From Diplonema papillatum (Eukaryota > Euglenozoa > Diplonemea > Diplonemida > Diplonemidae), in contig JAPJBO010000366.1 of NCBI GenBank assembly GCA_030068145.1, forward strand, positions 62,001-126,000: a stretch of 64,000 nt of DNA. The letters run 5' to 3'. Of the stretch, positions 1-53,780 are shown in pieces. The notes under the pieces were generated by a model. It had not been told where the DNA came from. It saw nothing but the letters and a program-made list of their open reading frames with translations, and did not search any database. Each line of letters opens with the position of its first letter. Positions within the stretch are counted from its first letter, which is position 1. Made by a program: the position numbers and the translations under genes.

Positions 1-3000
1 GATGCGTGGCTGTGAAGGTCGCAAGCTTTCCCGTCATCCAGCACCACGGATGAGATGTACCGGTAGTTTGCTTCCTTGCGCCTTTTCAGGGACAGAGAGC
101 TCTCCAACTGCCTCCACCAGCACTGCAGGCGAGTGGCCGCTGCGACCTTCTTCTGTCGAAGGCCCGTGAGGTCTTCAATGTACTCCTTCGCGGCTCTACT
201 CCTGCAACGGAGCTGCAGCACGCTGGCCCTACCACGCCACCAGTGTTGGAGGGTCAGTGCCGAGAAACCCTTCAACGACGACAGCCGCCTGTGCTCACCG
301 AGAAGCGCGGTGTCACGAGCGGTCGCTGCCACCAGTCGATCCTTGTCCCCGACGCGTTGCTGCATAGCTTGGCTGTTCATGACCCATTCGCAAAGGATGC
401 TGCGCCACCAGCACTGCAAGACGAGGCATGCCTCTTCTTCTCGGACCTCTTGATGTCCGATTCTCCTGTGCGATGTGTAGTTGATGGCCAGCAAGCAAGG
501 AAAAGGACGTATGTATTCCCGGTACTAAGAGTAACTGAGGGCGTTCTTTTACATTTGGTTGGAGGCGTACGGGTTACCACCACGTTCCTCCTGATTTGCC
601 CCTTCCTCGTAACTTGCGTAAACTCCGCTACGGTTGCTTGCATTGCTGGTGCTCAATTCGTACAGACTTCGAAGACTTGCGGAACCAAACTCGTTCACCG
701 GCCCGTTCGCAACAGCGACTGGGTAGTCTCCCGCGTGTGGAGTGGAAGAAATGTGAAAACGGGAAAGCATACCTACGCCGAAGGCGGTTGTCGAGGCTGT
801 TTTTATGCGTGCGGCACGCAAGGATGTTGCGGAAGAAGCGCGCCACCGTTTGCGCGGCGTCTTTCTCGTCGGGTCGCTGCTGCTCCTGCTGCCGCTGCTG
901 CGCCGAGCCTACAGCGACTCTCGTCCGGTAGCCCCGCCAAAGGGCTTTGATGAGGTTCACCGCGTCATCCTCGGTGTCCCAGAGGTACTGCTGCCAGCGC
1001 AGGCTGTGCGCCTTGCGTTGTACGCACGCGGCGGCGTGCCGCCTCCAGCAGCACTGGATGACGAGGGCGGCGCCGTTAAGCTTCCGGGCTTCCATCTCGC
1101 GTGTCATCTGCTGCTCGTCGGAAAGGGTGCGACTCCGCTTTTCCTGCAAAAGCCTCTTCGCAGGGGGTATGCGGAACGCAGCTTGGATAATGCACGCGGC
1201 GCTGTTCCGGTCGCCTCGGTCCGCGCGGCGGAGGCTCAGCCTCTTCCGCCGGCAGACGGACACCGCCCTCTTCCCCCGAACGAAGCTCTGTATCACGCGC
1301 GCGGCCTCATCATCGGCGCATCGGCCGTCTTCCGTGCACGCGGAAACGTGGCTCCTTCTAATGCTCACCTCCCCATAGCCCGACACATCGACGTCGACCA
1401 CGTCGTCGTCCCCACCCACCAACGTGCCTTTACGCCCGTTCATCGCGGCTTCACCCCCGGCCAGCCCGTTCAAGACAACCGTGCTCCCTATAGCGGGCGC
1501 CTGATTTAGTTAGTGGTATGTGTTGCAGCGCGTGTACTCCTCGGGTGTCCAAGCAAACCGAGCAACAGCAATAGAAATACTCCCGCGGAGTAGGTATGCG
1601 GCCACAGCAAGCCACTGCATCGATGTGGCTGAGTGACTGTTGGGACGCCTGAAGCTAGCTCTCGGTATATTCCGCGTCGGTGCCAAGCCCGTTGGAGCTG
1701 AAAATACTCGACGTAGCTGCTTTGACTCCGAATGGAAGGGAGGAAATATAGAGGTTGAGGGGATAATACGATACAAACACAATCTGATTTGTTCTTCGCT
1801 GACACCACCGTGTGCTGTTCTTTCACTCAGGACTTTGACCTGTTGTGTTAGTGTGATTTGTCGTGTAGGGGTAGACCCGCATGACCTCACGTCCGTTCAA
1901 CACGTGGTTCGGTGGTTACAGCACTTGGGATCCCTTCGGTTCTTTGTCTGGCAGTTATTGTCGAGCATTTCCTTCCAGCGCTTATGTAAAAAAAAAGATA
2001 CGTGCGCATGGTGCGCCAACGGGGATGGGTCCCGCAAAAAGGCCCGCCCGTGGTGCAACCGATGCTTTGAAGGTCACTACATTCACACCCGGACCGGCTA
2101 GCCGTTGAGGCGAACTTGAGCACTTAACTATGCCGCCGTCTAGCTAACGAGCTGGGGACTGGTTCTGCTGGCTGCCCCCTCTCTTTCGCAAGAAAGCCCG
2201 CCCGGGGCGCAACAGGTTCCCTCGGACCAGAAATGGAAAGCGGCAGGCCACGCATACCGCGGAGCTTCTGCGAATCGACGAAACGTCCCTCGAAGCCCGC
2301 ACGGAGGACCTGGGCAACGACCCAAAAGATGAGGGCCGGAACGGCGAACGTAGCGGTTCGACGTCGAATGTCTCTTCTCCCTGTATATTTGCGTGCGAGG
2401 GGGTAACTATACGACGTTGTGAGTGCCGGTATTCGTTTTCATCTGCTCAGATCTTCGATTCGGGGACGACGCAAAAAATGGGCAGAATTGTGTGAGAGAA
2501 CTACTGAAAATACTGCGCTTAAAATGGGACGATCAGATCCTGACGCCAGGGACAGTGTAAGTCGCGCCAGCCCGGAGAAGCAGAGAAGGTGCTGTGCGCC
2601 CTTCCTTTCCCACCCCTGTTTTCTGCATCTAAAGGGAGTGAGGGTAGTACGCTGCCGTCGATCGGGTTTTTGTTCTTCTTGACAACTTGCATCTTGCGTT
2701 TATTGGGCAGGAGAAATACTCGAGGGGCTGCCTGGTGCTTACTTCGAAGGAGGCTAGAGGGGGAGAAACAATACAACTGAAAAGTGGGTCTTTTTTGTTG
2801 AACGCTTACGCTCGCCACTGAACCCAGGTTCACCTGTGTTTCGAGCACAGTTACCTCCTTTGATCTTTTGCAGCTGGCAGCCTCCTCAAGTATTTCCTAC
2901 AAGGCAGGTGCGTATACAACAAAAAAAACGAAAAACGCACCTCTTTGGCTTCGCCTCGCTCCGGTGGCCCCGAGCCGAACGCGGCGGACGACGCGCGCCG

Positions 3001-5481
3001 AGCGTTGGACGACAAAAGAGACCGTCGGCCCGCCCACCCGCTCGGCCGGCGGCTCGGCTTGCCGAGCACGCAGCGGCGCACGGCGCGTTGGATGAGGCCG
3101 GCGGCGAAGGAGCGCCGCGCCGCGCTGTCGCGCAGCGCCGCTTCGCGGCGGAAGCGGTCGAGGCGCAGGGCCGCGAGCTTCTGCCGGACGACCCGCTGCG
3201 CGGCCGACACGCCGCTGCGGAGGACGCGCAGGCGGCGGCGCGCAGCGAAGCCGCGCCACACTTTTTGGATCGCCACCGCGAACCGCCACGAGTACGCGGC
3301 CAGCCACGCCGGCTCGGCCCGCGGGTGCCGCAGGCGGCACGCCCGCCGCCGGCCCCGCATCCCTCGGAACGCGGCTTGGATCCGGGTCGCTGCGTGCGCC
3401 CGGGCGCTCGCCACCGTCCGCCGGGTGTCGGCGCGTTTCCGCTCCGACTTCTGCGCCCGCGCCCAGCATATTCGCACGAACCTGTCGCAGAGGGTGTCTT
3501 GACGTGACGCCAACTCGAAGATTTGGGCCTTCCTACTACACGAAGAACGTGCAGGGGTAGCCACGCCTCAGCAGTCCCAGGGCCCCACCCTCCTATACTC
3601 TGTTCTCGTCGTCATCGCTACCGCGCTGACTTTGCGAGAGAGAGATCAAGACCCTTCGAACGAAGTGAGGGAAGCTCTGGAACTGATACTGACGAGCGAA
3701 TGAAACTTGATGGAGTTCGATCAACGAATGAGAGCGACTGACGATTTCGCTTAGGACACCTATTGCGGTTAACGGTACGGCCGGATGCAAATGAAATGAG
3801 ATCCCCCCTGTTTTTTCCACAAGACATCCTACACGAAGAAACTGCCGCTTCCAGTCTAGCTAACCCTGTCCCCACGTGAAGCGTTTCAAGGGTCAACCCT
3901 TCCTTCAAAAAGAGACGACTTCGAGTAAAGGTACATGTACTAAGTAAATACTACTAGTGGTGCGTACCTGTCAATCGCTTTCGCAGCCTGGTCAGCGGCC
4001 AGCTCGGTGTTTCGCATACAGTTCCAGCGGAAGTCGGCGACCAGTCGCTCGAACTCTTCTTCACGGGCGGCCTCAGCACGCAGCGTGTGCCGCTGGTGCG
4101 TCCTGCGCAGGCGGACGGCGCGCCTGACACGCCCTCGCGCGGCGTGGCACCGCCAGGAGCACTGGATCTTGGTCGCCAAACAGTGGTGCCGGTCGGTCTC
4201 GGCGCGCCACACGCCGAGCCAGCGCCGGGTTTCTTCCCCGTGGTCCCGATTCTCGAAGGCGACTCGCCAGTGCGCCGACGGGTTCTTGCCTTCTGGCGCT
4301 CGCGGCGCGAAGAGAGACTGCCAGCTGCTCCTCTGCGCCGCAATCTCCGCAGAACTCAGCGTCCGCTGGCGCTTCCGCTCGCGCGCCGCCTCCGCCTTGA
4401 GCTCCTCCGGCGTTGGTTCCACGGCTAACTTCAACTCTCGTTGAATGCTCTGCGTGAGACGCGAGCTTGCTGCGGCTTCTTGTTCCAGCCACAAGGACCG
4501 TACGCTCTCCGCCTGCTCGCGCCAGAGTTGATCCAAGCCTTGGTTGTGGAGGAGTCGCTTGCGTAGGAACGTGACGTGTAACTCTTCCTTCGCGAGCTCT
4601 GAGTTTATACTGGACATATACAGCCTCCGAGACTCCCTGTGCGCCGCGTTGATCTCCTGCATCCTGCGGTATCTCGCCTCTGCCTTCGCTTCCTGCGGGA
4701 CTGTCGGGCCCAGCCGCTGCCAGACCGCGTCGTGCGTCAACGGGTCGTCAGCGTCCGACACCTCGTCCGGCGCCGAGTCCTTGCCCGCGTTGACCGCGGA
4801 TTGGGCCGGGCTGCAGGGGTCGGCTGCCTGGATTAAGAAGGGGGCGACGCTCTTGTTTTCGAGGACGCCGGCCTTGAGGTAAAACGGCGCGGCGCCCGGT
4901 TCGGCGCCGCAGCCGGCGTCCGGGTTGGGGAGGTTGAAGACGTGTTTGCCGCCCTCCGACGACGTGGGCCGGAGGCCGCGGGGCGGGGGAATGGGGCGAG
5001 TCAGGCCTCTGGGGAGGGGGTGGTGGTCCCACATGGGCATTTCGTGCAGGAGCCCGTCGTGGTTGGGGGCTTGCTCGAAGATGAAGCGGTGTTTGCGGTG
5101 CGCCTCTGCCAGCGCTCGCTTCCGGTTGTCTCGGGCGCCGGAGGCTTCGATGCGTTTGTTTTCGATTTCGTATCGTTTGACGCGCGATGTCCGTAGTTCG
5201 AACAACGCGTACTCGTACCGAATCGAATTCTCAATCGTCTTGCACAGCGCTTGGATGTCGCCCTGCCGCTTCGCCGGCGGCGGCGCCGGCGGCGCGCCGT
5301 CCTCGAAGGTGCGCTCCGGCTTGCTGATCTCGCACACGCTGTCGAAGTCTTGCCTCTTCTCCGCTGACACCCTCGGCGTCTTCCTCTTGTACCCTGGCTT
5401 CGACATGCCCGGCAGCCCCACCATCTGGCCGCCGTTGCCGCGCCCATTCCCAGGAGGAGCGGGCACTGACGGCGCAGTCAT
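1..5481 (-). CDS. Multi-IQ-motif (calmodulin-binding) protein, four exons, 3' end beyond window
   Basis: Exons on the minus strand: 5481-3968, 3532-2941, 1500-773 and 465 to the window edge. All joins keep phase (2, 0, 2) and use GT donors (GTACGC, GTGCGT, GTATGC) and AG acceptors; the exon 3 acceptor follows a branch-like CTAAC. Exon 1 starts at an ATG (MTAPSV) and encodes a charged, proline-rich, partly coiled protein with an IQ-like segment (ATKIQCSWRCHAARGR) near its end. Exon 2 has IQ motifs (ATRIQAAFRGMRGRRR, AIQKVWRGFAARRR), exon 3 has ARVIQSFVRGKRA and ALVIQCCWRRHAA, and exon 4 has LVLQCWWRS, LTLQHWWRGRA and RLQCWWRQ. IQ motifs bind calmodulin or EF-hand light chains. No motor or calponin domain is visible, so the role, perhaps cytoskeletal, is unknown. 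Intron 2 (1501-2940) holds repeats A1 and B1; introns 1 (3533-3967) and 3 (466-772) show nothing recognisable. Exon structure is confident; function is not. Confidence 0.75.
1862..1996 (-). repeat. Intron-associated repeat family B, copy B1
   Basis: About 135 bp, closely matched by the opposite-strand copy at 16046-16205. Read on the minus strand it begins with a T run and CATAAGCGC, then GGAAATGCTCGAC, and ends with a stretch containing GGTCATGCGGGTCTACCCC. The T run plus ATAAGC start and the GGAAATRCT box resemble the left end of family A, so the two families may be related. It lies in intron 2 of the IQ-motif gene, in the gene's orientation. Confidence 0.7.
2714..2925 (-). mobile_element. 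Introner-like element family A, copy A1 (full length)
   Basis: About 212 bp. On the minus strand it begins with a T run and GTATACGCACCTGC, then the left inverted repeat AAATACTTGAGGAGGCTGCC, and ends with the right arm matching GGCAGCCCCTCGAGTATTT. It starts about 15 nt downstream of the GTGCGT donor that ends exon 2 of the IQ-motif gene at 2941, so it forms the 5' part of that intron. Confidence 0.8.
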
Positions 5482-5719: not shown

Positions 5720-5757
5720 CGAAAGCAGCGCAGGTTCACGGACCTGCGCTGCTTTCG
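5720..5757. other. Perfect 16-bp inverted repeat (hairpin)
   Basis: Arms CGAAAGCAGCGCAGGT (5720-5735) and ACCTGCGCTGCTTTCG (5742-5757) are exact reverse complements with a 6-nt loop. It lies about 240 bp upstream of the IQ-motif gene start. It could be an RNA hairpin, a small MITE relic or a protein-binding site; nothing separates these. Confidence 0.8.
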
Positions 5758-8104: not shown

Positions 8105-11009
8105 GCCGGGGCTGCGTCCCTTCACGTTTTGCGTTGCCGTTCGATCCCGAAGGACGATCAGTTTGGCGTCTTTTTTTCCCCTCCGTTCCCGTCGCTCCCC
8201 CGACCGACCTTTCTTGGTTCGAGGAATGCCTTTCGGCGGCGCGGCGCGGGGGCCTGAGGAAACGGCTACCGCATCGAAGGAGTGGCGGGGATGCCGGTCC
8301 GCCGCCTGCTGATAGACTTGTGACACGCTGCTGACAGGCTGTGATCAACAGCAGCAGGCGGTTCGATGCAGATCCAGGAGCTAGGGGTGGACTTGCCCAG
8401 TGGCAGCCGACGCTGCCGAGGCGGAGAAGTGAAAGATCGACGATCGACACGCACAATTGTTGCGGCAAAACGGCCCTGGAGGAGCGGGGCGCCTCCCTGG
8501 GCCCGTAGGGTGCCCTGTTTGCCTGTATTGCAGGAACCACAGGGACATTACGCGGGTGCTGGGACCTCGTACCCATGCTCAGGACGCCCAGGACGCTATG
8601 CCCTCCTGAGGGATGGAGATCATGAAAGACCCCAGATCTTCTAGATCCCGACACGTGGTGGTTCTGCACCCCACTCGGGACCTCCCACACTCCGCGGCGA
8701 ACGGCAACGCAACCCGAAGCTTTTTTGGGACCCCCGTTTGTCTCGAACCGGGTGAAGAAAGACGAGCTCGAAACGGACCGGCGTTGGGACGCGCAAAGCG
8801 TGGGGCAGGTTCCTATAGGTCTCGTCCGATCCGCCCTGTCCGACAGAGTGAGGTTTGAAACGAGATACCCGGACCGGATGTGGGTTTGGAATGAAGAGAC
8901 GAACGCGTCGATACGCACTGACAAACAGTGCCCGAGTGCGGAGTGCCACCACGGGGCCCAAAGGAATAATGCTACAAAGAAGTCGCATCAGCACCGAGCT
9001 ACAAAAGACGTTTGTATACATCACGCGCTCATGAACGAGAAGCTCGTCGGCAGATGCTCGCTGGGTGACCCTCCTTGCAATGTTCTTGTTCGGTGCAATT
9101 GTGAGCGTTTTTTTTTCATCGGGGAAAGCGGACAGGTAGAACTGTTCGACAGCGAACCGCGGCAAATAGCGCCAATGCGTGAGAATTCCCGCCTGGCGGC
9201 AATTTCCCCTCGTACAACCTTCGCCGCACAACAAAGAAAGCGAGAATCGAATGAAAACAAAGCGATCCAGCATGCCAGCTACGGTGGCAGCAGCCCACTG
9301 GTGACAACGCAGTGCGGCGTCGACAGCCGCGACGAGGGGGTCACACACTCGCCGAAACAAAGAAAAGAGAGGCCAGCGTTTGCGCATCATTTTTCACCCA
9401 ACGGCAGCGAGTGTCAGTTTTTTTTTTTTTATCCGGCCACGGGGCGTAACAACTGGGTAGCGCACGCCGTGGAAAGGGACATTCGGCCTCCTGGCTTGAG
9501 AGGCTGCCTTTTTGAAGACCAATTCTTGTGTTTATAGAAGCCGGTCTAAGGAGGCTTGCTTCAGAGAAAAACACTCGGAGGCGCCGGCGGGTGCTTGTTT
9601 TGACAGAGGCTAGAAAGGGGAGAAACAACTGAGTTTCGTGTGAGCTACGGCGAGTGTTGCGTTAGTGGGTTCGACATGCTGGTGAGTACAACAGTATGCC
9701 AGCCTGCGAATTGCAACAACGGGCGACCTCCTCAAGAACGACCTACAAAGCAGGTTTGCGTAGTCAAAGAATAGTTGAGTCCCAGCTTTTGGCAGATAGC
9801 AAAAAGAGGGTGCTCGTATTCTTCGCCTTCTCTCCCGAAAGGCGCTTCAGGGTGCGATGGCTTTTCCGACTCCCGCAATCGTGGGCAGCACAAACTCAGT
9901 CTGGTCGACTATTCCCTGCAGGATTTGCGCACTATGAAAGACTGTTGGTGGGGATGGACTCTTCTACTCGTAGTGTGATCCGCTTTCCAGTTTTCCGAGA
10001 AGCAGCAATTAAGGTCTCAGGCAAAACGGATCGACGGTAAGGTGATCAGTTACTAGCGTTTATTGTGGTTTAGAGGTTCGGTGTTTGAGGGTCTCCGGTT
10101 GACCATTGAGGCTGTGAGGCGGTAGTATGAGCCCGGGAACGTCCTCCTTTTTACGACGCGCGAAACGCGTGAGAAGGCTTTCAAAAAGCGAATCACACCA
10201 TCTATTGTCATAATTGAACGTCTAATCTAACTCTTCTTTCAGTATCGACTTTTATTTGTTTGAATGGAGCTGCGGCTGGTTGGTTCTTGTTTTCGTTGGT
10301 TGGCTTTCGTCATACAACGAACTTCGAAGGGGGAGGGAAAACAGGCTAGCGTGGTCGTCTCCGCTTGTTTGCGATCGCGGGTTTTTACAAAGTGTTTCCA
10401 TGACAAGTGTTTCGGTGTTGCTTGCTGACAGCGGTGCAGCAGTGCAGTTTGTGTACACAATTTTGCGAATGGCCTCAGGCGTGCACACAATTCCGCAGAT
10501 GACCTAAGGCAAGCTTAACGGAGAGCACGTTGCTGCACAAGGGTAAAAAGCTTGCTCGATACACGATCCTCGCTGTGAAAGCACGGCCAACCCATCCCTG
10601 GTCACGTTCATGCGCAATGAAGGAAGTTGGAACCGACAGGAGATACTATCGGTTTTCGACCTTCCTTTCCAGCGTTTATTTCCTTGCGGGATTCGGCCTG
10701 CGTAGGCGGATGGGTCGGAATAAGACTTTCTTGCGTGAGTGGCCAGGTCAGTGGCTACGCCAAAAAACCATTACGTTACGCTGCACCCGCGGAAGCTCAA
10801 ATGCGCGAGCCAAGGTGCCACTCGGTCGGCTTCGTACGCACTGGGCTTTGTATTGGTGTTTCTTCCCAGTACTCGCACGAGTGAGCGACAAAAGGAACGA
10901 GGGAACGAGGTGACTGACGAATACGAGCCGCACGCTTGCTAAAGCTGAATTCCAAAACGTCGCAGTACGGATTCGGTGCTCGACTTTGTCCCAGGTTCTC
11001 ACTTACATT
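8105..11009. other. Intergenic region, about 2.9 kb, no gene recognised
   Basis: Open frames here have no recognisable domain and overlap on both strands. The only structured item is a diverged family A element at 9569-9765. Low-complexity T/A runs occur near 9110 and 9420. The segment probably contains the 5' flank of the methyltransferase gene and the 3' flank of the channel gene. Confidence 0.5.
9569..9765 (-). mobile_element. Diverged introner-like element family A, copy A10
   Basis: It retains the order of family A blocks on the minus strand: CCTGCTTTGTAGG, then a TTGAGGAGGT-like arm, then GTAGCTCACACGAAAC, a GTTGTTTCTCCCC block, and a degenerate right arm. Identity is clearly lower than among other copies, so this looks like an old insertion. 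Confidence 0.55.
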
Positions 11010-24145: not shown

Positions 24146-24191
24146 GAAATACTCGAGGGGCTGCCTTGCTTACTTCGAAGGAGGCTAGAGG
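24146..24191 (-). mobile_element. Truncated family A element, copy A4
   Basis: Only the right-arm side remains (plus strand AAATACTCGAGGGGCTGCC and GAAGGAGGCTAGAGG). It lies about 120 bp upstream of the hypothetical gene start (24027), in gene orientation. It could mark a 5' untranslated intron or be a dead fragment. Confidence 0.6.
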
Positions 24192-27122: not shown

Positions 27123-27239
27123 TGAAAGTTTCAAAGTGTCCCAAAAAAATGATGTTTGACCCCCCCCTTGTTTTTGACAGTGACTGCCAGGTAATTGACA
27201 GCAACAGGCATGTAACCCTCTGGGAAAACCAAACGCGCC

Positions 27240-27266
27240 ATACAAAGCAGGTGCTTATACAAAAAA
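27240..27266 (-). repeat. Family A left-end fragment, copy A5
   Basis: Minus strand reads a T run, GTATAAGCACCTGCTTTGTA, then diverges before the inverted repeat. Only the donor-proximal end of family A is present, showing that this block can occur without the rest of the element. Confidence 0.55.
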
Positions 27267-27367
27267 TATGTATCACCAACGATTTAAAAGCTACAGTTTC
27301 TGTACTTTATTGGCTAGTCTGACACTAGTTGTCGTCGGGAAAAAAAAAAAAAAAACCAACGCCAACG

Positions 27368-28531: not shown

Positions 28532-28660
28532 CCGGGGTTGGCTCCCCCGAACCAATCAACCGAACCGACCTGACTTCAAGAGCAAATATCATATCAGTCA
28601 ATTCCTCCCCCGTCACATCAGACGCTTCCCCCTCCGAACCGGAAGACGAGCGGCCGACCG

Positions 28661-38100: not shown

Positions 38101-40527
38101 CCTGTCGACCCTGAAGTGAACGTGACCACCGCCGTGTCGTCGGGCAGGATCTCGACGTTCGGCGACCCGACCGGGTACTTCGAGAACATCGATGCGAATT
38201 CGCCCGACTTCGGCTGCGGCAACGACAGGCGGACCTGATGACGGTGATGGTTTGTGCTTTTCGCCGACTGACTTGTTTTCGCAGATTCTGCGCACGCAAA
38301 AAGCCGCGATGAGAGCCTGGTAGGAACGCACGTGCGCATCGTGCAAAATTCACCGGGAATTCGATTAGTGAAAGGCAGCACAAAGGTCCCCTGCCTGAAA
38401 AAAAGAGGGTGCAACGCAAGCGAGATACCAATTTTGGGCTTCGCATTGTTGATTCATTGTTTGGGAACAGGACTCAGATGCATGTGTGATACGAGGCCAG
38501 CGTCAAGGCTTCAAAGAAAAACGTGAAGGAAAACGTAAGGGGGCAAATGCACGGACCTTCGGCTTGATCGTCGTGAGGTACTCGTCGACGTCTGCCGGTT
38601 CCTTCGGCGCCTCCGCGATGCGAACCCAGCCTTTGATGCCTGCGATTTTCATGCACGTCACGACACGCTCCCCCGGGTACTGCGGGTCCATCATTGAGTA
38701 CGCAGCGCCCGCCTTGTAGATACCGATGATCGCGATCACAACGGCCGGGCTCCGGTAGCCGTAGATTCCGATCACGTCTCCTTTGACGACGCCGGAGTCG
38801 ACGAGGTGGTGGGCAAACTGGCTGGTCGACTCGTCGAGCTCCTGGTATGTCATGTTTAGTCCTTGCTCGTAGGCAACCGCTAGTTGGTTGGGGTGCCGCA
38901 TGGCGTTCTTCGTGAAGACGTGGACCAGGGCGCCCGGCCAGCCTCCATCCTGCGGCGCATTCGGATCGGGCAAGATCGACTTCGAATGGTTGGTGATCAG
39001 GGTGTAATCGTAGATGCCGCACGTCGGCTTGTCGACGACCTGTTGCAGCAGGTGGACGTACGTGTTCATCAGCTCCGCGACGAAAGGCTTCGTGAAAAGC
39101 TGCGCGTTGTACAAGAAGACGAATTCCATTCCGCCGTCCCAACGAAGGTTCACGCGGAGCGTGAGGTCGTACGGGGCCAGCGCGTATCCGACGACTTCCA
39201 AGCTTTTTACGGTCGACCACGTCACGTCTCTCTTCAACGGGGGCGTCAACTGGCTGTCCATCATGTACATGACCCTGAATAGGGGGGAAAGCGCGTCCGG
39301 GTCCTGATCCTGCATGGAGCCACCTAGAAGCGTGGTCTTCGTGCCCTTCAGCGTGTCGAGCATGAGAGGCGATTCGATGACCTGCTCGAACTCAATGTGT
39401 CGGTGCTGCATGACGGAGTGCAGAGACTCGGAGACGCGCTGAGCCACCTCGCGGAAGCTGAGGCGATTGGCCGCGGCATCGTCAGCGGCGGTCAAGTCGG
39501 TGCGCAGGGGGATTCTGTTGGTGAGTGGTCCCACCGAGCTTTCGTACCCATCCTTGCGCAGGTTGGTGAGCAACCCGATGACGATGTCCTTTTCGGCCGT
39601 CATCCGAGAGAGCCACGCCACGAAAACGGAGATCAACACGTTGTGGACCCCGAATTCGTAGTGGACGCCGAGTCTCCGCAGGTTCTTCGCGGCCGCTGAG
39701 CTGCCGTGCAGAACGTGCGAGTGCCGCGCCTGCTTCATCGAGATGCGCTGCGGCCGCGGCCGGTCGGTGGGAACCTGAACGACAGGCATCGCCGCCTCCA
39801 GATTCGTGGCCCAGAAGGAAACAGCGTCGCGGAAGCTGTCCGACTCTGTCGGGTTTTCGAAGAACGACGACGCGTGCGTCCCCGCCGACTCGCTGGTGAC
39901 CAGCTGTTCCACCAGCGACATCAGCTGCGAGCCCTGGGGCGTCAGCAGCTGCTCGTACGTTTGCACCCATTCTTGCACGATCCACTCGACGGACCAAGCG
40001 TCGACGATGCTTCGGTGGCCGACGATCAAGATTTCTTCGACGCGCGGCCCCCTGCGGAGGACTACGAACCGGATGAGCTCGCATCCTTGCTCGTTGAGGC
40101 GGAACGGCTTGAGCAGCCACTCCGTGCACGGCACCCGCAGGTCCGCGCAGCTCTCGTCGACGGTTTGGAAGAAGATGAACCGGTCAACCATCGGCGGCTC
40201 CCAGTCGGACCGCACCAAGCAGTACTCGGAGCTGTACGGGGGCACCAGCAGCTCGCACGGCGGCGGGGGGAAGACGGCGTCCTTCGCTTTCTTCTCGAGG
40301 CGGCACTGCAGCACCGGGCTCCTCTGCAGCACCTTCGCGATGGCCAGCTTGCACGCGTTCAGGTCGAGGGCGTGCCCCTCTCGAAACCGAATCCGCCTCC
40401 CGACGCTGAACCCGGTCTGCACCGACCCGTCGCCGGCCGTCAGCACTTGGTGATCCGCGAAGCTGTTCTCGAGCATCAGATACTTCTCCTGCTGCACCGT
40501 CGCAGCATACTTGTGCAGCTTTGCCAT
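35165..40527 (-). CDS. LYS2: Alpha-aminoadipate reductase (Lys2 type), three exons
   Basis: Exons 40527-38557, 38234-35496 and 35233-35165, all joined in phase 0 (TIKPK to VRLSLP; KITSN to VPWEALFK), give about 1,592 residues. The N-terminus is condensation-like with a degenerate active site (GHRSIVDAWS; second catalytic His replaced by Arg), as expected for a domain not used for condensation. The adenylation domain has KAGAAYSMMDPQYPGER, TFTSGSTGTPKG, NMWGTTE and YKSGDLGHYLADGTVE with GRVDDQVKIRGFRIE. A carrier site follows (FFDLGGHSLS; Ser takes phosphopantetheine from a Lys5-type transferase). Then comes the NAD(P)-dependent reductase (VFITGTPGFLATYI; catalytic GGYTQSKW). The reaction is ATP- and NADPH-dependent reduction of alpha-aminoadipate to its semialdehyde in lysine synthesis. 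It is longer than yeast Lys2 (about 1,390). Intron 2 is largely element A7. Confidence 0.92.
35311..35480 (-). mobile_element. Introner-like element family A, copy A7, forming Lys2 intron 2
   Basis: The element occupies about 170 of the 262 nt of the intron (35234-35495) and starts about 15 nt after the GTATGC donor. It has the T run, GTATACGCACCTGC, left arm AAATACTTAAGGAGACTGCC and CACGAAACACAGGTAAATCT, and lacks the right arm. It carries a small internal insert (GCCGATGACTCCCCACTATC) also found in A8. Confidence 0.85.
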
Positions 40528-40574
40528 GATGGCTACTTATTTCTCTTCCAACCTTTCTCGGATTCCTGAGTGGC

Positions 40575-43475: not shown

Positions 43476-46400
43476 CTAGACCACGCTTCGGGCTGTGAAA
43501 ACGCGGAGGGATTCTGGAGACCGGTAGAGCCGCAGGAGCTCTTGGTACAGCGCCTCTTCCAAGACGAGGTCGCCTTCGCACCGTGCGTGGTGCATGCACG
43601 AAATGATGTACTCGACGGGCCGCGGGTCTTGCATATCCTCGAGCACCACGCGATGCGCGGAGCCCCTGAAAAATCCGCTCACGACTCTGCCAATGGCGAG
43701 GACGAACGTGGAGTAAAGCGCCGTGATGCTGAATGACGCCAGGATCGACCCGAGCCCCGAGCTGTCGGCAACGTCGCTCGACGCGGAGACGAAGAAAAGA
43801 GGCGCCTGGCCGAACGGCTCGCTGGGATCCCCCGAATCGTTGTACCGAATGGCCTCGGCAGCGGGGCAGCCACTCCACCTGAAGTACTTGCTGCGTGAAA
43901 AGCATAGCGCTTCCTCGTCTGTATACGTAAAGAACGGATCGAGCGGATTCCCATTCTCGAAGATCGTCTCACACTCAAAGCTGGTGCTGAACCCACGGAA
44001 GCTCGGGCATGAGTTGTTCGGGCAGAGGCCGGGCTCGATGATGAGGTTGCAGTGGAACAGGCCTGTGTCTGACGACGGTCGGAAAAAGTGCAAAGACTCG
44101 CGTTCGTTTGAGATGAACGGGCTGTAGAAGTCGGGCAAAGGCGCTACAAACGGTGTCGACTTCGACGTGACCTCCAAGGCCCGCGCCATAGCCAGGCGCG
44201 CCGCGGGCGGCATGTCGCTCGTCCACGAAAGGTGGAGAACCAACAAAGAAGCTTCAGGAGCAGCCGAACGCGTGATGCTGATGTCGAGCTGAATCGAGAC
44301 ACCGTGCGGCATGGCGTATCCCCCGATCAAATACAACTGCCGCATGCCCGCCTCATCGGTAAGGTCTAGAGTCCAATTCCCACTCGTATTGAGCCCAGTC
44401 AGCTGCGTACGATTGTCCAGTGAAGCTTCCCTTACACTCGCCCACAAAGTCTGACCTTCGCAGCACCAATCCCGCGCAACACGGACGTCTGAGTCCAGCG
44501 AACATCCCGCATCCAGTTGGTGACACGACGCTGAGCCTAAGGGACTCCGGCCACCTGTAATTTGTCTCGCTTCGCTTATTGACAGGTTTCCGTCTCGATC
44601 AAAATCGAACGGCGCGACCACCAGCCTAGCCTCTCGGTAGCTCCACAGCTTGTCTGACAATGCCCTGCCCGATTCATCGGTCACCCACCACACTGCTTGG
44701 CTCTCTTTCGGGAGCTCAATCAACTGGACTGACTTCCCATCATACTCAGATGGTGACAGCCCGGGGCGCGTCAGCTGCACGTGCCGCATCGTGTCCGTCG
44801 AGAGCAGGTGCCTCGAGGTTTCGGGCAAATATTCGCGGCTGCTGTAAAAAGGTTGCGCGCCCACGATGGCGGCTTCGATGGTCACCGCCTCGACGTGGTT
44901 TGTTGTGAGCGCAGGCGAAAACGATGAGTAATACAGCAGTGGAAAGAACAAGATGAAGACCAGCACCACGACCGTACTGCACCCCAGCATCGCCTTCGCA
45001 TAAGCCGGGTACTTTCTCGACTTGCCGAGCCGCCGATGGAGGCTGCGTGAGTTTTCAATGTCGCAGCGTGCGACGTACAGCTCGTGGGTGATGTCCTGCA
45101 ACTTTATCCACCACCTGAATTTCAAGGTAGTCGACGTGAACGTCCAGTCGACGACCGTCTTCAGCTCGTGCACGAAAGGCACTGCCCGGGAAAACATGTA
45201 GAGACGGCAGAACAAAGCGCTATGCTTGTCCTGCAAGAAGAAGTACCGAGAGAGCTCTGCGTACCCGTCCCGGATCTGCGCCGCCGAGATCATCAGGTAC
45301 AGATACTTCAGGGCGAAGCAGGCCGCGACCACGCGGTACGATGCCGGCGAGACGTATGATACTACAACTCGCGGGCTGGTCATCTCCACTTCCGTTGTCA
45401 GCCGCTCCGCAGCCCACGCCGAGAAGAAGAAGAAGTAAGCGCAGCTGCTGACAAGCTGGTAAATGAACTTCGCGACGAGGCTCTTGTAGAGATACACAAT
45501 CCGATCCACGAGAATCGCCACCAGAAGAGCGAACTGAGTGACGACGAGGGCGCCGGGTAGTGTCCCAGCGAGGGCTGATGAGACTCTGCTGGTGCCTTCG
45601 TCCTTGATCGCGTTGTAACAGAAGATGAACGTAACGAACGCAGTGAAGTCGACGAGGAACATGCACATGTAGTAATCCCTCCCCGTTTTGAGCCGACTGG
45701 CGTCGAGTATGTTGTAACGAAGCGTCTGGTAAGGGTTCCACCGAAGGACTGGAACGGCTGGCTTGCTGACGCCTCGCCTACACGCGGCAACGGCGGAGCC
45801 GCCGGCAATCGGAAGGTCGTGTTCGATGCCTGCTGCCTCCGCCATCTCCCCGAGTTGCGCGAGACTGTCGCCGAAGTCTTCGTCCCTGAGCTTGCCGCCG
45901 CAACCATCCTGATCCCGGATGCTGTGGTCGTCGGAGTTGTAAGAAAAATGCGTCACCACCCTCGACACCGTGCCGACGACCTTCACGAGCATCCCGTTGG
46001 ACAAACTGTACTCGGCGGTCGCCTCGGGAATCGCAATCAATTCCCCGTCGATGTACTCCTCACAGTCCAAATGCACAATCGAAACCGCAGCGGATCGGTC
46101 CACGTCAGAGTGGTGCACGCAATCATATCGGTAGTACAGCTGGTGATTCGTCCACAGGCCGAGGTACTTGAGCGAATGGCGGTGCGCGATGACGGCGAGG
46201 ATGGACAGCAGGTCGAACAGAACGCTGCTCAGGAAGTCGTCAATCGTCCCGAAAAGGAACGGAGCCGAGCGCTGGCAGTCATCGAACGAGCTCTTGAAGA
46301 GACTGTAAGCCAAGCTCTTCAGTACGACCAGCGTGTTGTGGTAGAAAAGACACCAGTACCAAAAGCCGAGATGCGGACGCGGGTGGAGGAGCATTGCGTA

Positions 46401-49400
46401 AGATACCGCGGCAACGGGGATGATGAGGGTTGAAGCGGAAGGGTTGCGAAGGAAGCCACTGATGAACACAAGGTAGCACACTTTGTCGGTGTGTGACCCG
46501 ATGAACCAAACGACGGCGGAAACAAGCGCAGGCCATCGAGGTTTCGGTTTGTGTGGGAACGGGAGTGAGTACCGACGAAGGCATGCAGCCGCCGCATCCG
46601 CGAGGCGGTTGATCAGGTGCATGTACGGCCACGTGGAGAATTCGTCTTCCGCGTCTAGGCCTTCGGCGGCCGGCTTCTCGGAAACGACGAACCGGTACTT
46701 TTTCGCAGCAGACGGCCCCTTGGCCACCTTCCCGAGGGTTATCGTGGTCATCATCTGTTGCTGCGAGTCGGACAAGTCTGTGTACGTGTCCACGGCGTGG
46801 AACCGCTCGGAACTGCACGGTGACCCGTCTCGCACCGGCGCGGCTTCTAGAGCGGAGACGATCGAATCCTGCAGGAAACCCTCTGATATCAGCCGTTCTT
46901 CGAGAGCCGACCGTTGCCTGACGATGGCTGGTGCAATGGTCGGACCGTGCATGCCTGCACCCCGGGCAGACCCCTCGGGCGGAGCTGCGGCCAGGTCCGC
47001 CGTGCACTGCTCGCAAAGCTGATCCTCCGGCATTCTCGCGCACTTTGGGCAAATCATGATTTCCGTCGACGAGTGGCCGAGGCGGACGGCCGCCAGCTTG
47101 GTCTTCCTGCGCGCCCTCTCCCGCTTCGCGTGCTTCTTCCGCCGGTCCACGTCCCACAGCCATTCCTGCTGTATTCTCTCCCCGATATCCCTCGACGCGA
47201 TCTCACGCGCCTGATCGTAGTACAACACAAACACCCAGTCCCTTCCGTCGAACAGCCGCCCCATGGCATACGCCAGCACCATCACCGTGCCGTGCATCCA
47301 GTAGTCCTTCACTCCGCAGTGCCGATGTACATTCGTTGTGCTGAAATTGTCCTGGACCATGGGCGTCGCGACGACGCAAGACAGCGTGAGGCACAGAGTG
47401 TACAGCCGGTTGATCAGGCACCACAACCGCGTGTTCCATTTTAGAGAGGGTGCTTGGCTGAACAGGAAGACGGCCAGGATGACCTTTGCCATGTCTACGA
47501 TTCCGACCGGGTTCGGCTTCGCGCCGTCGATAAACACGAGGCTGATCACGAAGTAGGGAAGGACGATGCAGACGAAGTACTTCGCGGTCTCGGCAGGCGT
47601 GCGGACGTGGTCAGCAGACGGCGTGAAGTTCCGCGAAGGCTGCACCAAACGCCCGGCGGCCTCGCAAGCTGGGCAGCCGCAACCCGGCACGGGGAAGCCA
47701 GCTGTTTTGGCGATGGCGTGCAGGTCACCGAACGGGTACGGGACTCGTTCGGCGACGACGCCCGCGCCGAACAGCGCCCAAATCGCGCTGCGGGCTGCCT
47801 GCAGGGGCTTCGCGTTCTCCTTCAGGAACACCGCTGTGTTCCTCCTGGCCTCCTCGTACTCGGACCGCACGTCCGCGCCCTTCGCGCGCTTCCTCAGATA
47901 CACCCTCCACTGCGTCGCTGCGGCCAGCACGACGGCAAGTTGCATTGCAAGCTGGCCGGGCGTGACGTCCGTGCATAAATAGTCCCTCCACGACCCTCCC
48001 ATCGCGTCAGGGTTGTAGGGGAGCCGGTGGACGGTCGCGTTTAGAGTCTCCAAGTCCTCATCGCGCGGGGGGAGGCCGAGGTACATGAAGTACTGCCAAA
48101 CAAGCCCCGCGAAGCTCACGACGAAGACAACCGTCCACCACTCCACTTGCCTGGCCGCCGGGAGTGGCAAGCCCATGCCTTCTTCTCCCATCCCCGCGGA
48201 AACCACGAGGAGGGTGAGCATGATGGGGGCGCGGATGGTGGAAGGCGACACGACGATCGCCAGCAAAAACGTGAGAAGCGACAGCGCGAACGCGAACCGG
48301 TCGGCAACGGACGCCGGGTTGTGTCCGATTTCGTAGAGTGCTGCCTTGCCGACGACGAGCCACCACTTCAACGCGCCGCGCAACGTCCGCGACGCCTTGA
48401 TTCCATTCTCATACTCGGGCGACGGCGCTGGTGACGCGTCCAGTGTGCTCGTTTCGTCTTCCGTCAAACGGGCTGCGTACCGCCCCAACAGGCCGACTAC
48501 GTAGACGACCATGTGCGTCCACGTCACGGACCACAACGCATCGCCTTCAGCAAACCCCGTGTACGCCGCGAGACCCCTGCCTAGCGCTTTTTGAATCCCT
48601 CTGCGCAGGCCTGGAAACTGGAATGATACAACTGCGAGCGTGACCGCAGCGGCGTAGCCCGTAAACAGCTTCTGGATGTGAACCATTCGCTTAAGGCCGA
48701 TAATCGGTGATACCAAGTACAGGCACAGGTAGCACGCGTATGGTATGGCGAAAATCGACGATCGATACAACGACGCTGAGAACACGGCTCCAACGAACAA
48801 CGCGACGATGGTCGCAGGCTTGTAGTAAGAGACGATGAGCTCTCGGGCTGCTGTGGTCACCACTGCGCGCCTCGTCAGCAGGGCTGGCGTGTGTTCCGCG
48901 ACGAATTGCATCTGCAAGTTCCAATGTGCCAAGATCCCCACCAGCGCGATGGGGCACACGGCTACAAAGGCAGCCGCTGACCCTGTGTTGTCCCTTTCGA
49001 GGTACGCTCGAACACCCAGCATTTCAGGACTCATCGCAAACACCTTACTCAAGACAGTTCTAAACCCAGACTGACAAACCGGCCACTGGTAGATGTACGT
49101 CAACACCAGCCACACCGTTGCAAGCCCCCTCACAACATGCCACACAACACCCTTCAACCGCCCGACGTGCGATCCAGTTGTCGCCACTGCAACACCAGCT
49201 GCTGCTAGGAAGATTATGGTCAGCAAACATGTCATCAAACTCGTAGCCTGCAAGCCGGCCACTAGATAAAGGGATGTCAAGCAGAGCACGTCAAGGAGGA
49301 CGTGCTCTGACACTCCCAGCCTCCCTGCCAGGCTAACGAGTGGCGCGTACCAAATACTCACCCCCAAGCTCGACTCAGGGCCGGGCTCGTCTTGACTTCG

Positions 49401-52400
49401 CCGCCGCTGCAGTTCCAGCACTTCTGTCGCCAGCAGATGACGCGCCACTATGCGCTCTTCCGAGGGGTCCTGCAGTGTGGTTGGCCATTGTACACTGGCA
49501 CGTAGCGGCAGTAACTGATAGGTACCTTTCCTTAATATCAAACGCCAAGGTGCATTCAAAAAGAGTCAGAGACGCGAAGGTCACAATTTCAGCAAATAAA
49601 AGACAGGCGCTTCGTTTTGTTTGTGCGTGCCGGTTGATCGTTTTCCCACTTGTATTTACCCTGTGTGTATTCAGGTAAGGAATTCTGATGATGATGAAGA
49701 CCACCAAAACACGCTGCCTACGTCTTTTTAGCCTGCACAATACATTGAAGGGCAACCCACAAGATTGTTAGTACTAAAAATAAACACACCCAGTACGTCC
49801 ACCGCACGTTCATGATGTTTCGCTGCTTCAAACAAACCAGCAGGAGGAGGAAGATGGGCACGAAGTCCGAAATGTCGCGAAGCCCGTAGCCGACGACGTC
49901 CGCGACGCCGCGGTGAAGATCCTGTGTGAATACGGTGGTGGTTGATGCTTCGTCCCATGGGCTTGCTACACACGCACGCTTCTGTCAGGAACTTCCGTAC
50001 TTCTACTGGGAGCAAAGGGCCCTCTGAGGCAAACTCAGCGGCAACAGGAATCTCGTAGGTTCGTAGGTAAAAACTTGCCCAACGTGAACCGGGCTTGCTC
50101 GATACTACTATGTACGAAGGATAAGGCGACCGCGCTAACCTTGGAGAAAAAAGGTCAAGGGAGAGAGAGAGAGAGAGACGAGTTGGAGTGCAGGGACCAT
50201 CTCTCCGAGGAGTTTCCGGTCACCTCACTACAACCCCGTCAGATCAAAATACTCGAGGGACTGCCTTGTGCTCTTTCCGACGGAGGCTAGAGGGGGAGAA
50301 AACAATACAACTACAAAGTAGGTCCTTTTTGTTGAACGCTTACGCCCGCCACTGAATCCAGATATACCTGTGTTTCGTGTCAGCACATTTACCTCCTTTG
50401 AAATTGGTAAATTGTTGCGATAGTGGGGAGTCATCGGCATGCCGGTGAATACCACGATGTGCCCCCACATTTGAGATTTCGCAAATGGTCAAGTATTTCC
50501 TACAAAGCAGGTGCCGATAGACCATCGAAAACTACGGCACATTTGCAGAGGGTAGCACGCTCATGTACAGGACAACTTTCGGGGAAATAATTCAAACCTC
50601 GGTCTCCGGCAAGACGCCCTTGTCCAACACGTTGAAGAGATACAACAGCACCAAAGCTGCCGCCACGTAGAAAAGGACGTACGCCCAGTACCTCGGCGCG
50701 AGCTGAGGCCGGTAGAAGAAGACGATCGAAGTGGCGAAAAGAACCGCGTGCACGCCGTCGACCGTCCACCAGCTCACGAAGTGGACAAAAGAGACCGCGA
50801 AGCCCAGGAACCCGCGGTGATACAGGACATGCAGGCGGTCGGTTGGAGAGCAAGCGTTGAACTGGGCGATGCGGAAGGTGGGATGCACGGTTGAATATGA
50901 CGAAAGGGCAACGTGGGTGTGGTACACTCTGCGGGTGACCGCGACGAGCAAGACAAGGACGCCGAGGAACGGGAGGGCGAAAACTGCGCAAGACACCTCT
51001 TCGAACACGCCGCACGTCGACGTCGCGAAGCCGAACATTTGCAGCCTCCGAACCGTTGCGCTCTCCGTTGCGTTCGCCTCGGCCCCCTCGCCGCTCCCCT
51101 CTCTCGCCACCAGTCCCGGCAGCGCCACGATCCACACGCCCAGCGCGTACACCACCGCAAACCAGAGGACCGGCGTCAGAATCCGGTAGAACCACTGTTT
51201 CCTCAGCAGCGCCACTACGAGCAACACGAGCCACCCAGCCGAGATGCCGCCAGGCAGCAGGGCAACGTTCACGGTCATGACGCACAGCAGGAGCCACGTC
51301 GTGTAGTACAGCGTGCTCTCCCGGAGCAGCTCGGAAAAGCGGCGGAGGGACACCGTCGCGGCGCGGCGGACGGACCGTTTGAACCGCGAGACGTCCATCG
51401 CGCGCGGCAGGCGCAGGCGCCCCGCCCGGGCCGGCGCGTCCGCCCGCCGCAGCCGAGCGGCCGCGGCCACCGCGAAGTCGACGGCCGTCCGGACGGCTCC
51501 GGGCCGGGAGTCGCCCGCGCCGCGCTGGTGGATCGGCGGCCGGCTTCTGCCGTCGCTGGTGCAGCTCGCCGAGTCGGGCTTCGATGCGGGGTCGGCGTCC
51601 TCGGCGGTGCCCGCGCCATCGCCGTCCAAAGAGCAGACGTATCCGCACAGCAAAAAGTGGAGCGCGGTCAGGCAGAACATGTGCACGATTCGTTCCGAGG
51701 CGGAGTCGAGGGGCCGCGTTGCGGCGTCGTCGTGCCGCCAGTGCAGGTCAAACACCTCGAGCGTGCCTTCCGGGATGCGGTCGGTCAGCCGAGGCACTAG
51801 CAGCGCGTAGTGAAAGAGCAAACTCGCAGCCGTGTGCACGCGGAACCAAGACACAAACGTTCGAACAACATGTGAAGGACACCCCGCATTGCCAGAGGCG
51901 CCTGGATCACCTCCCGCCAACGAACTGCGGCCAAGAAGGGGCTCTTCCGGGTGTTGCTGGAGAGCGGGGAGCGCGGAGGAAGCTGAAAGTCGACCGTTGC
52001 CGATCGCTTGCAAACTATCGATGTTCCGGTGACGCAGAGCGTTTGTATCTTGCATCTGCGCGTGGTTCGACTCCCCGAGAACGACAGTCTCCGGCCCTGT
52101 GCCACTCAGAACGCCTCCCTCGACGTACATGGTGGACCCCTCGCCGAGCTCTATCTCGCTGATCGTGTTGTGCATGCTGCCCAGGTCCGACTCCATTGGC
52201 AAGCTGGCCCTTTCCTTCGCCGCCTCCCACAGCGCGGGCGGCGGCTTGTTTTCCCCGGACCAGTGGACGCAGTACACCAAGAAAATCGCCAGAAACGGCA
52301 AGTCGGCCACCGACACGTGGCTCGCCGCCGACAGCCCGCAGAACAGCGCCACGATCGCAAAATGGGTCACCGGCGATCGCCTCGAGACCGCCGCAGCTTG

Positions 52401-53450
52401 CTCTGGTCGCGCTTCGAAGCCGAAGCCCGCCGATTTCGACGCCGCTTTACCCGCGAGGATTCGGTAGGCGACCGCCGTGGCCACGAGGGCGCACTCCGGC
52501 GCTATGCACAGCGCGCGGTGGACAGGCGTCGACCCTCGGAACCGGCAGATGCCGAACATCTCCGCTTCGTCGGACTGCACGGCGGCTTCGAAGGCGGGCG
52601 CCGACGCGGCATCCGCCGCTTGCAGAACGGCCTGTGCGGTGAGGTACAGCGCGGCCACGACACCGCTCACATAGACGGTTGATTTTGCACGAGAGCGCGG
52701 GGCAAGCGCGTCGACTCCGGTGAACAGGGGGTGGGTCGTGGCGGCGACGGCGAAGCAGGCGACGTAGGCGAGGGAGGCGAGGTGCAGCCGGGCGAAGCTC
52801 GCGGCGATCTGCACGAGCGGCGCCGCGCCCGCCAGGGCGCGCAGCCGGCGCGCTGCCGCGCCGGCGCCGGGGCCGGCGCCGCCGGCCAGCTCCAGCAGCC
52901 GGTCGCTGGCGCCGGTGCTTGCCCGGCGGCGGACGCCGCGCCGCTTCTCGCGCAGGCCCGACAGCATCTGCGCCGCCGCCGCGACGGGCGTCATGCTCTT
53001 CCCGCTGCCCTCGGTCGGGACCACCCCGGGCTTCTCCTCCTTCGCCGCCAGCTCATTTCCGAAGAGCCCGTCTACATCGTCGTCATCACCGCCCCGCCCA
53101 GGCATCTTGCGGCTCCAGTCTTCGCTGCACGGAGCCACAACGGAGGGGGCGTAACTCTCGCCGTGGACACAAGGGGGTTCCCAGGACAGCCGCGCGTTGG
53201 ACGCGCGCGCCGTGGCCGACCGGAGCGCGGACGGCAGCGGGGGGTGGTCCCCCAGCGGGTTGAACCCGCGGCGCTGGCCCGGCGAGGCGGCGTCCATGTT
53301 CACGTACGGCGCGGCCGAGTCCTCCCGGCGGAAGCCGGCGGCGGCGTGCCCGCTTCCGTCCATCACTCGCCCGCCCGCCGCTTCAAACGCATCGTTCACC
53401 TTGTCGAGCCTACTGCCCCGGGCCAATCCCTCGGCGCGTTTTCGGCTTGC
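43476..53450 (-). CDS. Piezo-type mechanosensitive ion channel
   Basis: Proposed exons are 53450-50598, 49921-49722 and 49494-43476, joined in phases 0 and 2 (PETE to DLHRG; QAKKT to VQWPTT), giving about 3,020 residues. A short 5' exon may be missing, because the exon 1 frame before about 53365 has no ATG. The N-terminus is disordered, then dozens of transmembrane segments follow, consistent with the Piezo blades. Near the C-terminus the family's anchor and beam region is visible (VDWTFTSTTLKFRWWIKLQD, KYPAYAKAMLGCSTVVVL), then FFPLLYYSS and a long extracellular cap, the inner pore helix (ITALYSTFVLAIGRVVSGFF), and the tail LEEALYQELLRLYRSPESLR, close to the animal and plant consensus. Piezos are trimeric, stretch-gated cation channels. 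The middle exon encodes GYGLRDISDFVPIFLLLL. A 50-bp copy of methyltransferase sequence and element A8 lie in intron 1. Confidence 0.9.
50172..50220 (-). pseudogene. Fragment copy of methyltransferase coding sequence in Piezo intron 1
   Basis: Nearly identical to 7517-7565 in the Bud23-like gene (shared GACGAGTTGGAGTGCAGGGA, CATCTCTCC and GAGTTTCCGGT), next to a GA microsatellite. It is too short to encode anything. Confidence 0.75.
50246..50520 (-). mobile_element. Introner-like element family A, copy A8, in Piezo intron 1
   Basis: Both ends are present, with an internal insertion of about 80 bp (50405-50485) carrying GATAGTGGGGAGTCATCGGC, also seen in A7 and, as TTAGTGGGGAGTCATTTGCA, in family E. 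It lies 76 nt downstream of the GTTTGA donor within the 676-nt intron 49922-50597. Confidence 0.75.
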
Positions 53451-53560
53451 CTGGTAAGACGCGAGAAGGTCCCTCGGCCGCTCTTTCAATTTTTTTTCGG
53501 GGGAATTCTACTTCACGTGCGGGTGCCCTGTGTGTGTTGTCGGTTGCGGTATCCTCCCGA

Positions 53561-53780
53561 AAATACTCGAGGGGCTGCCTTGTGCATGCTTCGAAGGAGG
53601 CTAGAGGGGGAGAAACAATACAACTACAAAGTGGGTCTTTTTTGTTGAACGCTTACGCCCGCCACTAAACCCAGATTCTCTTGTGTTTCGTGTGGGCTAC
53701 AGCCCATTTACCTCCTTCGGTCTTTTGAATATGGCAGCCTCCTCAAGTATTTCCTTCAAAAGCAGGTGCTTACACAAAAA
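53561..53780 (-). mobile_element. Introner-like element family A, copy A9 (full length), 5' of Piezo
   Basis: Both inverted-repeat arms are present, in gene orientation. It lies between the first coding exon I can model for Piezo and sequence upstream. The acceptor-like TCTTACCAG at 53451 would close an intron that begins above 53785, where either GC (AAG then GCGCCA) or GTGTAAG could be the donor. Confidence 0.75.

Follow-up and report, generated by a model that had tools for sequence, protein, structure and literature searches.

Family A and its surroundings in the window

We analyzed a 64-kb stretch of the Diplonema papillatum genome (contig JAPJBO010000366.1, here C366, positions 62001-126000; genome of 271.4 Mb in 2,910 contigs), hereafter the window, in which a short repeat, family A, recurs among protein-coding genes. 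Coding calls fall on the minus strand, except for those of a reverse-transcriptase locus and one segment at 58730-59059. Two long frames at 34689-40536 (minus) carry condensation, AMP-binding, carrier, and reductase domains and resemble a nonribosomal peptide synthetase or an aminoadipate reductase. A Piezo-type channel gene spans 43476-53507 (minus), with PF24874, PF12166, and PF23188 in the frame at 43476-49565; the frame at 50592-53507 has no Pfam match and is joined to the Piezo frame only by the reading of the first-pass annotation, which was made from the sequence alone. A separate retroelement at 27329-32212 (plus) consists of a 400-amino-acid frame without a Pfam match, followed by a 1212-amino-acid frame with RVT_1 (E value, 1.2e-12). 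Tandem repeats with units of 21 nucleotides (nt) and 60 nt occupy 26952-27140 and 58705-59124.

The first-pass annotation described at least ten copies (A1 to A10) of a core of about 215 bp. The family itself was confirmed: the exact inverted arms and the T run with its GTATAAG block recur in the window far beyond chance, and blastn with A2 as the query recovered A9 at 92% identity over 225 columns (E value, 2e-90), A1 at 90%, A3 at 87%, A6 at 90% over 165 columns, and A8 at 87% over 159 columns. A profile search of the window gave 11 matches at an E value of ≤1e-3, two of which are parts of A8; together with A5, which was found by blastn only, these define 11 places. The copies proved less complete than described, since four (A1, A2, A3, and A9) are whole and the remainder are fragments or bear inserts. 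Like most coding segments of the window, nine of these 11 lie on the minus strand; the earlier statement had nine of ten copies in the direction of the genes.

The complete copies, called AB units for reasons given below, are A1 (2714-2924, minus), 23 nt past the donor AAAGAG|GTGCGT in an IQ-motif gene; A2 (17821-18040, plus); A3 (20197-20408, minus), 21 nt past the donor AATCAG|GTGTGC; and A9 (53561-53781, minus), just upstream of the coding segment at 52053-53408 and beside the Piezo frames. A1 resembles one coding copy described below (L061) and A3 the other (L062), while A2 and the A2B2 terminus of L061 share 99.0% identity. A2 also adjoins a small-subunit rRNA fragment (18053-18205, minus; Rfam RF01960, model positions 1667-1823, 61.6 bits). 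Blastn and the profile agree on A4 (24147-24191, minus), a right-end fragment covering model positions 175-221, and on A6 (33388-33558, minus), which covers positions 2-173 and then gives way to unrelated sequence. A5 (27241-27266, minus) is a 26-nt left-end fragment, 100% identical to A2, that lies just before the 27329-32212 retroelement and on the opposite strand. A7 (35313-35476, minus; positions 2-134) is degenerate, contains an extra segment, and lies 26 nt past the GTATGC of TCCAAC|GTATGC in the reductase gene. A8 (50247-50520, minus), likewise degenerate, is split by an extra segment (positions 8-70 and 58-221) and falls between two Piezo coding segments, so that A8 and A9 both lie in or adjoin the Piezo-type gene. 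The profile added a weak left-end fragment (16045-16111, plus; positions 1-69) and a weak degenerate match (9629-9768, minus; positions 5-101; E value, 1e-5). Model positions 58-80 are the site of a recurrent break or additional segment, seen in A7, A8, and four sampled loci elsewhere in the genome (L010, L014, L019, and L030); in A7 and A8 this segment contains GATGACTCCCCACTA, which resembles the reverse complement of part of a repeat at 61393-61488.

Family A is very probably the terminal unit of a tyrosine-recombinase retrotransposon

The profile comprises 221 positions and was built from 28 copies; across the window and the first 60 sampled loci, it matched 99 times. Matches start at positions 1-3 in 62/99 cases and end at positions 218-221 in 56/99, with a second edge at positions 140-146 in 12/99. 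The inverted arms lie at positions ~30-49 and ~202-220, and about 29 nt of T run and block stand outside the left arm; copies start at the T run. The earlier description was therefore right about the arms but not about the ends, which the arms do not form. For the same reasons (inverted repeats that are not terminal, and 62/99 matches starting at positions 1-3), we rejected a DNA transposon with terminal inverted repeats or a miniature inverted-repeat transposable element (MITE).

The edge at positions 140-146 provided the clue to a parent element. Behind position 146, L014 and L038 run into a common open frame starting ATGCCGAAGC, and extension of these two loci yielded the coding copies L061 and L062, which are 80.8% identical over 4.66 kb. 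In these copies, the left 142-146 nt of the unit (in one case read as positions 2-146) form a leader that runs straight into the ATG of a gag-like open reading frame (ORF). L061 continues with a tyrosine-recombinase (YR) ORF and a reverse-transcriptase (RT) ORF, after which the right ~98 nt of the unit return (positions 124-221), followed by another whole unit (positions 3-221); the length of L061, counted from its first block through its last GAGTA, is 4,657 nt. The order is unchanged in L062, whose 3' end consists of positions 124-221, then 3-146, and then the start of the gag frame again. Split direct repeats of the form A1...B1A2B2 are thus complete in L061 and present as far as A2 in L062, and a 20-bp repeat flanking the L061 coding region recurs in A2B2. 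In the available parts of the published accounts, the layout A1-[ORFs]-B1A2B2 is that of Ngaro, PAT, and VIPER elements (PMC4157794, PMC8547959, PMC6681497).

Pfam searches identified Phage_integrase (PF00589) in L061 and L062 with E values of 3.3e-8 and 2e-8 and RVT_1 (PF00078) with E values of 3.2e-4 and 4.3e-5, the latter under the Pfam curated cut-off. The gag-like ORF of L061 has no Pfam match, no RNase H model matched in L061 or L062, and no methyltransferase model matched at an E value of ≤0.1 in the six frames scanned. The motifs WQGAAR, GHSLRR, and SRHTT, then WVDN, then WTDASS are presumably catalytic and give the order YR, then RT/RNase H. Judged by its layout and predicted domains, family A is very probably the AB (A2B2) terminal unit of a YR retrotransposon of ~4.66 kb with the structure A1-gag-YR-RT/RNase H-B1-A2-B2, and not a member of the inverted-repeat introner class proposed by the first-pass annotation. 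Its YR and RT ORFs are as expected for YR retrotransposons, the DIRS order; we place the parent among those with split direct repeats and assign no finer class. Locus L019 holds, at 4349-4589, a unit with a short gag-start remnant between its A and B parts, as if a coding copy had been internally deleted. A tRNA-like end beside L061, recognized by eye, was not called by ARAGORN and was set aside.

The available parts of earlier accounts offer two close parallels. The Ngaro element of Cafeteria burkhardae (PMC8547959) shares the A1-[ORFs]-B1A2B2 layout, gag, YR (PF00589), and RT (PF00078), and its isolated AB repeats are scattered in the genome and likened to solo long terminal repeats (LTRs). 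Its ORFs are ordered differently (ORF1 gag, ORF2 RT/RNase H, ORF3 YR, versus gag-YR-RT/RNase H here); thousands of AB units, T-run sites, and sense placement beside donors are features of family A that go beyond the part of that account available. In Trypanosoma cruzi, SIRE is a short element from the A2B2 of VIPER (PMC6681497) and, like family A, a short nonautonomous unit corresponding to the A2B2 of a YR retrotransposon. The same source, as far as available, lists VIPER as Gag-like, YR, and RT/RNase H, an order that the parent of family A (L061) fits better than it fits the Cafeteria Ngaro. The likeness to SIRE is drawn from layout, and family A differs from the description of SIRE available in having copies in spliceosomal introns. 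Unlike DIRS and PAT elements, the parent of family A has no methyltransferase match.

Genome-wide abundance and insertion into T runs

The first-pass annotation had proposed a search of the whole assembly. Allowing up to two mismatches, we counted 9,541 left arms (4,809 + 4,732), 8,515 right arms (4,305 + 4,210), 285 leader-to-gag junctions (147 + 138), and 332 B-A junctions (172 + 160), or about 33 left arms for each gag start. Among the matches listed (100 each), at least 11 pairs of ORF start and B-A junction beyond L061 and L062 are spaced 4,310-4,330 bp apart (on C12, C17, C38, C48 [three pairs], C60, C63, C69, C80, and C90), which would fit additional coding copies of equal length. A tandem array of AB units at C122:202569-204538 shows B-A junctions with a period of 216, one step being absent among the matches listed, and L017 is also an AB tandem. 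The 41 complete units in the sampled stretches and the window have a mean pairwise identity of 91.7%, in keeping with the recent spread suggested earlier. Assigned to the nearest coding copy, 30 are of L061 type (including L037, which is L061's own end), 10 are of L062 type, and one is equally close to both. A satellite with a period of ~222 bp that contains CAGGTGCGTGGGGGGG lies at C298:194103-200644.

These numbers bear on how the isolated units arise. As with solo LTRs, recombination between the repeats would generate AB units, which may also be mobilized in trans. That AB is instead itself a mobile, SIRE-like nonautonomous element and not a remnant of solo recombination comes close to an even chance: the excess of left arms over gag starts, the period-216 tandems, and the variants with internal segments added or deleted all favor it, but solo units and tandems also come from repeat recombination.

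Insertion into T runs was observed in two comparisons with empty sites, identified through their joined flanks (L020 versus L045 and L049; L024 versus L006 and L012). The empty sites contain T7 (L045), T3 (L049), and T4 (L006 and L012), and the filled sites carry T runs on both sides; a third comparison (L004 versus L013) gave a one-sided alignment only. In 28 of the 41 units having a readable block, 5-10 of the ten bases before the block are T. A run of at least three T's follows GAGTA in 24/28, with none found in 4/28, and the copies at L017 and L037 are seated in the terminal T run of other copies. We infer that a circular copy integrates through its B-A junction, where the YR would recombine the T-run core with a target T run.

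Sense copies in introns lie close to splice donors

The first-pass annotation placed several copies in introns directly beside the donor. In the window, this held for A1, A3, and A7, whose donors precede the block by 21-26 nt. The donor claimed for the Piezo gene lies ~78 nt from the degenerate A8, and, because the frame at 34689-38453 stays open across the 264 nt of the claimed Lys2 intron, which has no in-frame stop, frame alone does not prove that intron.

Across the genome, GTGCGT occurs 7-32 nt before the exact block at 51 places (29 + 22) and 33-58 nt before it at 46 (24 + 22). We sampled the first 20 places of each list with 300 bp upstream. Coding sequence runs up to the site in 6/20 of the near set, always as AG|GTGCGT (L076, also in this set, has CAG|GTGCGT without a coding call). 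The far set has upstream coding sequence in 2/20, each with a nearer donor-like site (GACAG|GTATAC in L093 and GAGCAG|GTATTT in L100), and AG|GTGCGT with coding sequence up to the far site in 0/20. Exon-AG|GT donors are thus found in 6/20 near versus 0/20 far places (Fisher P = 0.02). The antisense mirror search gave 28 places (16 + 12), of which 18 were sampled; the ten left out comprise eight in which the spacer is like the element's own antisense end and two repeating a sampled context. None of the 18 antisense copies stands at an AG|GTGCGT donor. Coding sequence lies within 300 bp of one, but its end falls >100 nt short of the site and does not coincide with an AG|GT; scored as a hit nonetheless, this would give 1/18 versus 6/20 in the sense direction (P = 0.09). 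The earlier expectation of a sense bias therefore stands at AG|GTGCGT donors, where every copy found was in sense.

Eight sense loci have coding sequence (L103 to L110), among them exons with matches to a protein kinase, an ABC transporter, and a guanylate cyclase, as well as exons with EF-hand, PH domain, and methyltransferase matches that are under the Pfam cut-offs; the exons of L106 and L107 have no Pfam match. From the GT of the donor to the block, the distances are 25 nt (L063/L103), 15 nt (L065/L104), 24 nt (L068/L105), 26 nt (L070/L106), 15 nt (L072/L107), 18 nt (L080/L108), 13 nt (L093/L109), and 11 nt (L100/L110). With A1 (23 nt), A3 (21 nt), A7 (26 nt), and two kinesin loci described below (L055, 36 nt; L060, 31 nt), there are 13 intronic cases with an exon edge, A8 being set apart; all are in the sense direction with the block 11-36 nt past the donor, as the first-pass annotation had held for some copies. 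The first six of the 13 were chosen by the 7-32-nt pattern, and the other seven were not. Among eight left flanks chosen by look from the 40 centre copies (L001 to L040), five (L003 [weakly], L032, L033, L034, and L040) show, as judged by eye, an open frame of coding appearance that reaches a GT ~10-35 nt ahead of the element. Proximity to the donor withstands testing.

Among the donor-side copies, L106 reads on into the gag ORF of the element itself, and the ATGCCGAAGC gag start is retained in L107 and L109. Five of the eight donor-side loci (L103, L106, L107, L108, and L109) have a main match that stops at model positions 131-148, short of 221; this proportion exceeds that in the general sample, and three of these five carry ATGCCGAAGC.

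Two simple causes of this placement were considered and rejected. A native T tract after donors was not apparent: CAGGTGCGT is followed by T5 at 235 places (132 + 103) and by A5 at 751 (194 + 557), counts inflated by nested run lengths, the C298 satellite, and the element's own antisense end. By eye, the places listed for C1 to C55 show about 13 T runs (15 less two that bear the element) versus about 12 A runs after CAGGTGCGT, although many CAGGTGCGT places need not be donors, and the noncoding sequence of the window, read on the gene strand, has 69 T runs and 60 A runs of at least five, a slight asymmetry. Nor do the counts support GTGCGT as a recombinase half-site, since near and far places are alike (51 and 46) and a reversed-motif control gave 81 places, mostly repeated contexts. 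In more than 30 of these 81, the element stands in one repeated context like ACGCACAAACAAAACGAAGCGCCTGTCTTTTTT, which reflects either one T run inside another repeat family or co-amplification with that family.

Sense copies beside a donor may be the ones retained. The unit contains splice-like motifs, AG|GTAAAT and CAG|GTGAAT on its sense strand and CAG|GTGCTT on its antisense strand, which at other points of an intron would interfere with splicing, while a copy near the real donor would leave scant upstream room for inclusion of a pseudo-exon. Alternatively, integration itself may favor the starts of introns, for instance if YR or gag binds a factor or a DNA structure there. Such direction to the 5' ends of introns, in place of selective filtering, is a minority possibility but a live one: the placement is sharp and oriented, T and A runs after CAGGTGCGT are about equal so that a native T tract offers no explanation, and GTGCGT is in no clear excess near the block, so that the motif alone is not the target. 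On the other side, the mechanism is hypothetical, selective loss of copies at other intron positions would give this pattern too, and the numbers are small.

We also asked how copies lie relative to coding sequence in general, applying a codon-usage score trained on the window genes to 63 copies. For 49/63, no coding segment was found within 600 bp, with 700-bp loci offering just ~210-270 bp. In the 10-kb loci L001 to L020, coding sequence lies within 600 bp at 5/38 copies versus 112/440 other positions (Fisher P = 0.11). One of the five, L014, is at the element's own ORF and has another coding segment near; a count omitting it as a self case (4/37, P = 0.047) was not used, given that other segment. 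Enrichment near coding sequence is thus not seen in the 20 sampled loci; for coding neighborhoods in this sample, that goes against the enrichment in introns on which the first-pass annotation had staked its reading. For 57 copies outside the window, orientation to neighboring coding sequence is sense in 3, antisense in 3, and ambiguous in 3, with no neighbor in 48 (the 57 include L014 and L038, which are coding elements themselves); the six window rows give four sense, one antisense, and one with none. Away from donors, these numbers are too few to read an orientation from. A candidate antisense copy beside an exon (L004) was discarded for its unconvincing frames.

Intronic copies need not be the source of their introns

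According to the first-pass annotation, the family supplies introns. Kinesin genes bear on this claim: PF00225 has 132 matches, and family A is present in 2/20 sampled gap regions, both in sense (L055 and L060). The L055 donor splits one codon (CTCG|GT or CTAG|GT), as in L043, L052, L053, L056, and L057, in which no element was found within the sampled stretches, some of which may end inside the intron; in a seventh kinesin, L054, the donor is shifted. Because the donor position is common to five paralogues in which no element was found, parsimony suggests that the L055 intron is older than its copy, in this one gene family.

The acceptor could be read in two genes. That of L105, CTACAG|ACATG, comes ~460 nt after the unit, with exon 1 matching ABC_tran at model positions 2-79 and exon 2 matching it at 86-137; in L104, ~425 nt of intron follow the unit. 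The copies in L104 and L105 thus appear to occupy the 5' ends of introns that extend well past them, and not to be introns themselves.

These observations make a true Introner, a nonautonomous element that makes introns by insertion into exons and draws its donor from nearby exon sequence, improbable. Such an origin would suit the eight genes with a sense copy whose block follows the donor by 11-26 nt, the lack of antisense copies at AG|GTGCGT donors among the 18, and the continuity of the ABC domain across the L105 junction. It fits poorly with introns that extend ~460 nt (L105), ~425 nt (L104), and 138 nt (A3, as called in the first-pass annotation) past the right end, with a kinesin donor position common to five paralogues whose sampled stretches show no copy, with donor-side copies that enter the gag ORF (L106) or keep its start (L107 and L109), and with the absence of enrichment near coding sequence in 20 loci. 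In the parts available of the account by Gozashti et al. (2022; PMC9860276), some Introner families resemble family A in having a repeat near the splice site and a site taken from flanking sequence. Relative to that account, family A differs in that only the donor side is close, that at least one intron appears older than the element, that the unit would derive from a YR retrotransposon, and that it is not enriched near coding sequence in our sample.

Discussion

We conclude that family A is in all likelihood the A2B2 end of a YR retrotransposon. The converse history, in which AB was an independent MITE or short interspersed element later captured by a retrotransposon, is hardly credible despite the great excess of AB, as two AB subfamilies track the two coding copies, A1 is the gag leader, and B returns after RT.

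Several points weigh against the account given here. The RVT_1 matches fall below the curated cut-off, and the RNase H assignment comes from recognized motifs and not from a model. Most sampled loci were picked by the exact left arm, which favors L061-type units. A YR crossover within the T run is a deduction, and in a homopolymer it is indistinguishable from a short target duplication. The exonization argument for the retention of donor-side copies is likewise indirect, and an intron predating its copy is indicated for kinesin only.

Intronic repeats beside a splice site invite an introner reading; here, a putative parent element has been identified. A literature search combining "introner" with "tyrosine recombinase" found no paper. 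It is conceivable, though unlikely, that this YR retrotransposon is directed to integrate, in a fixed orientation, next to active 5' splice sites and no more than ~30 nt into the intron. If true, this would be a safe-haven strategy in which element DNA is always spliced out, and its product could resemble an Introner. Sense-only placement on the donor side offers an unusually clean system for distinguishing targeting to splice sites from tolerance at them, a question that bears on how introners begin.

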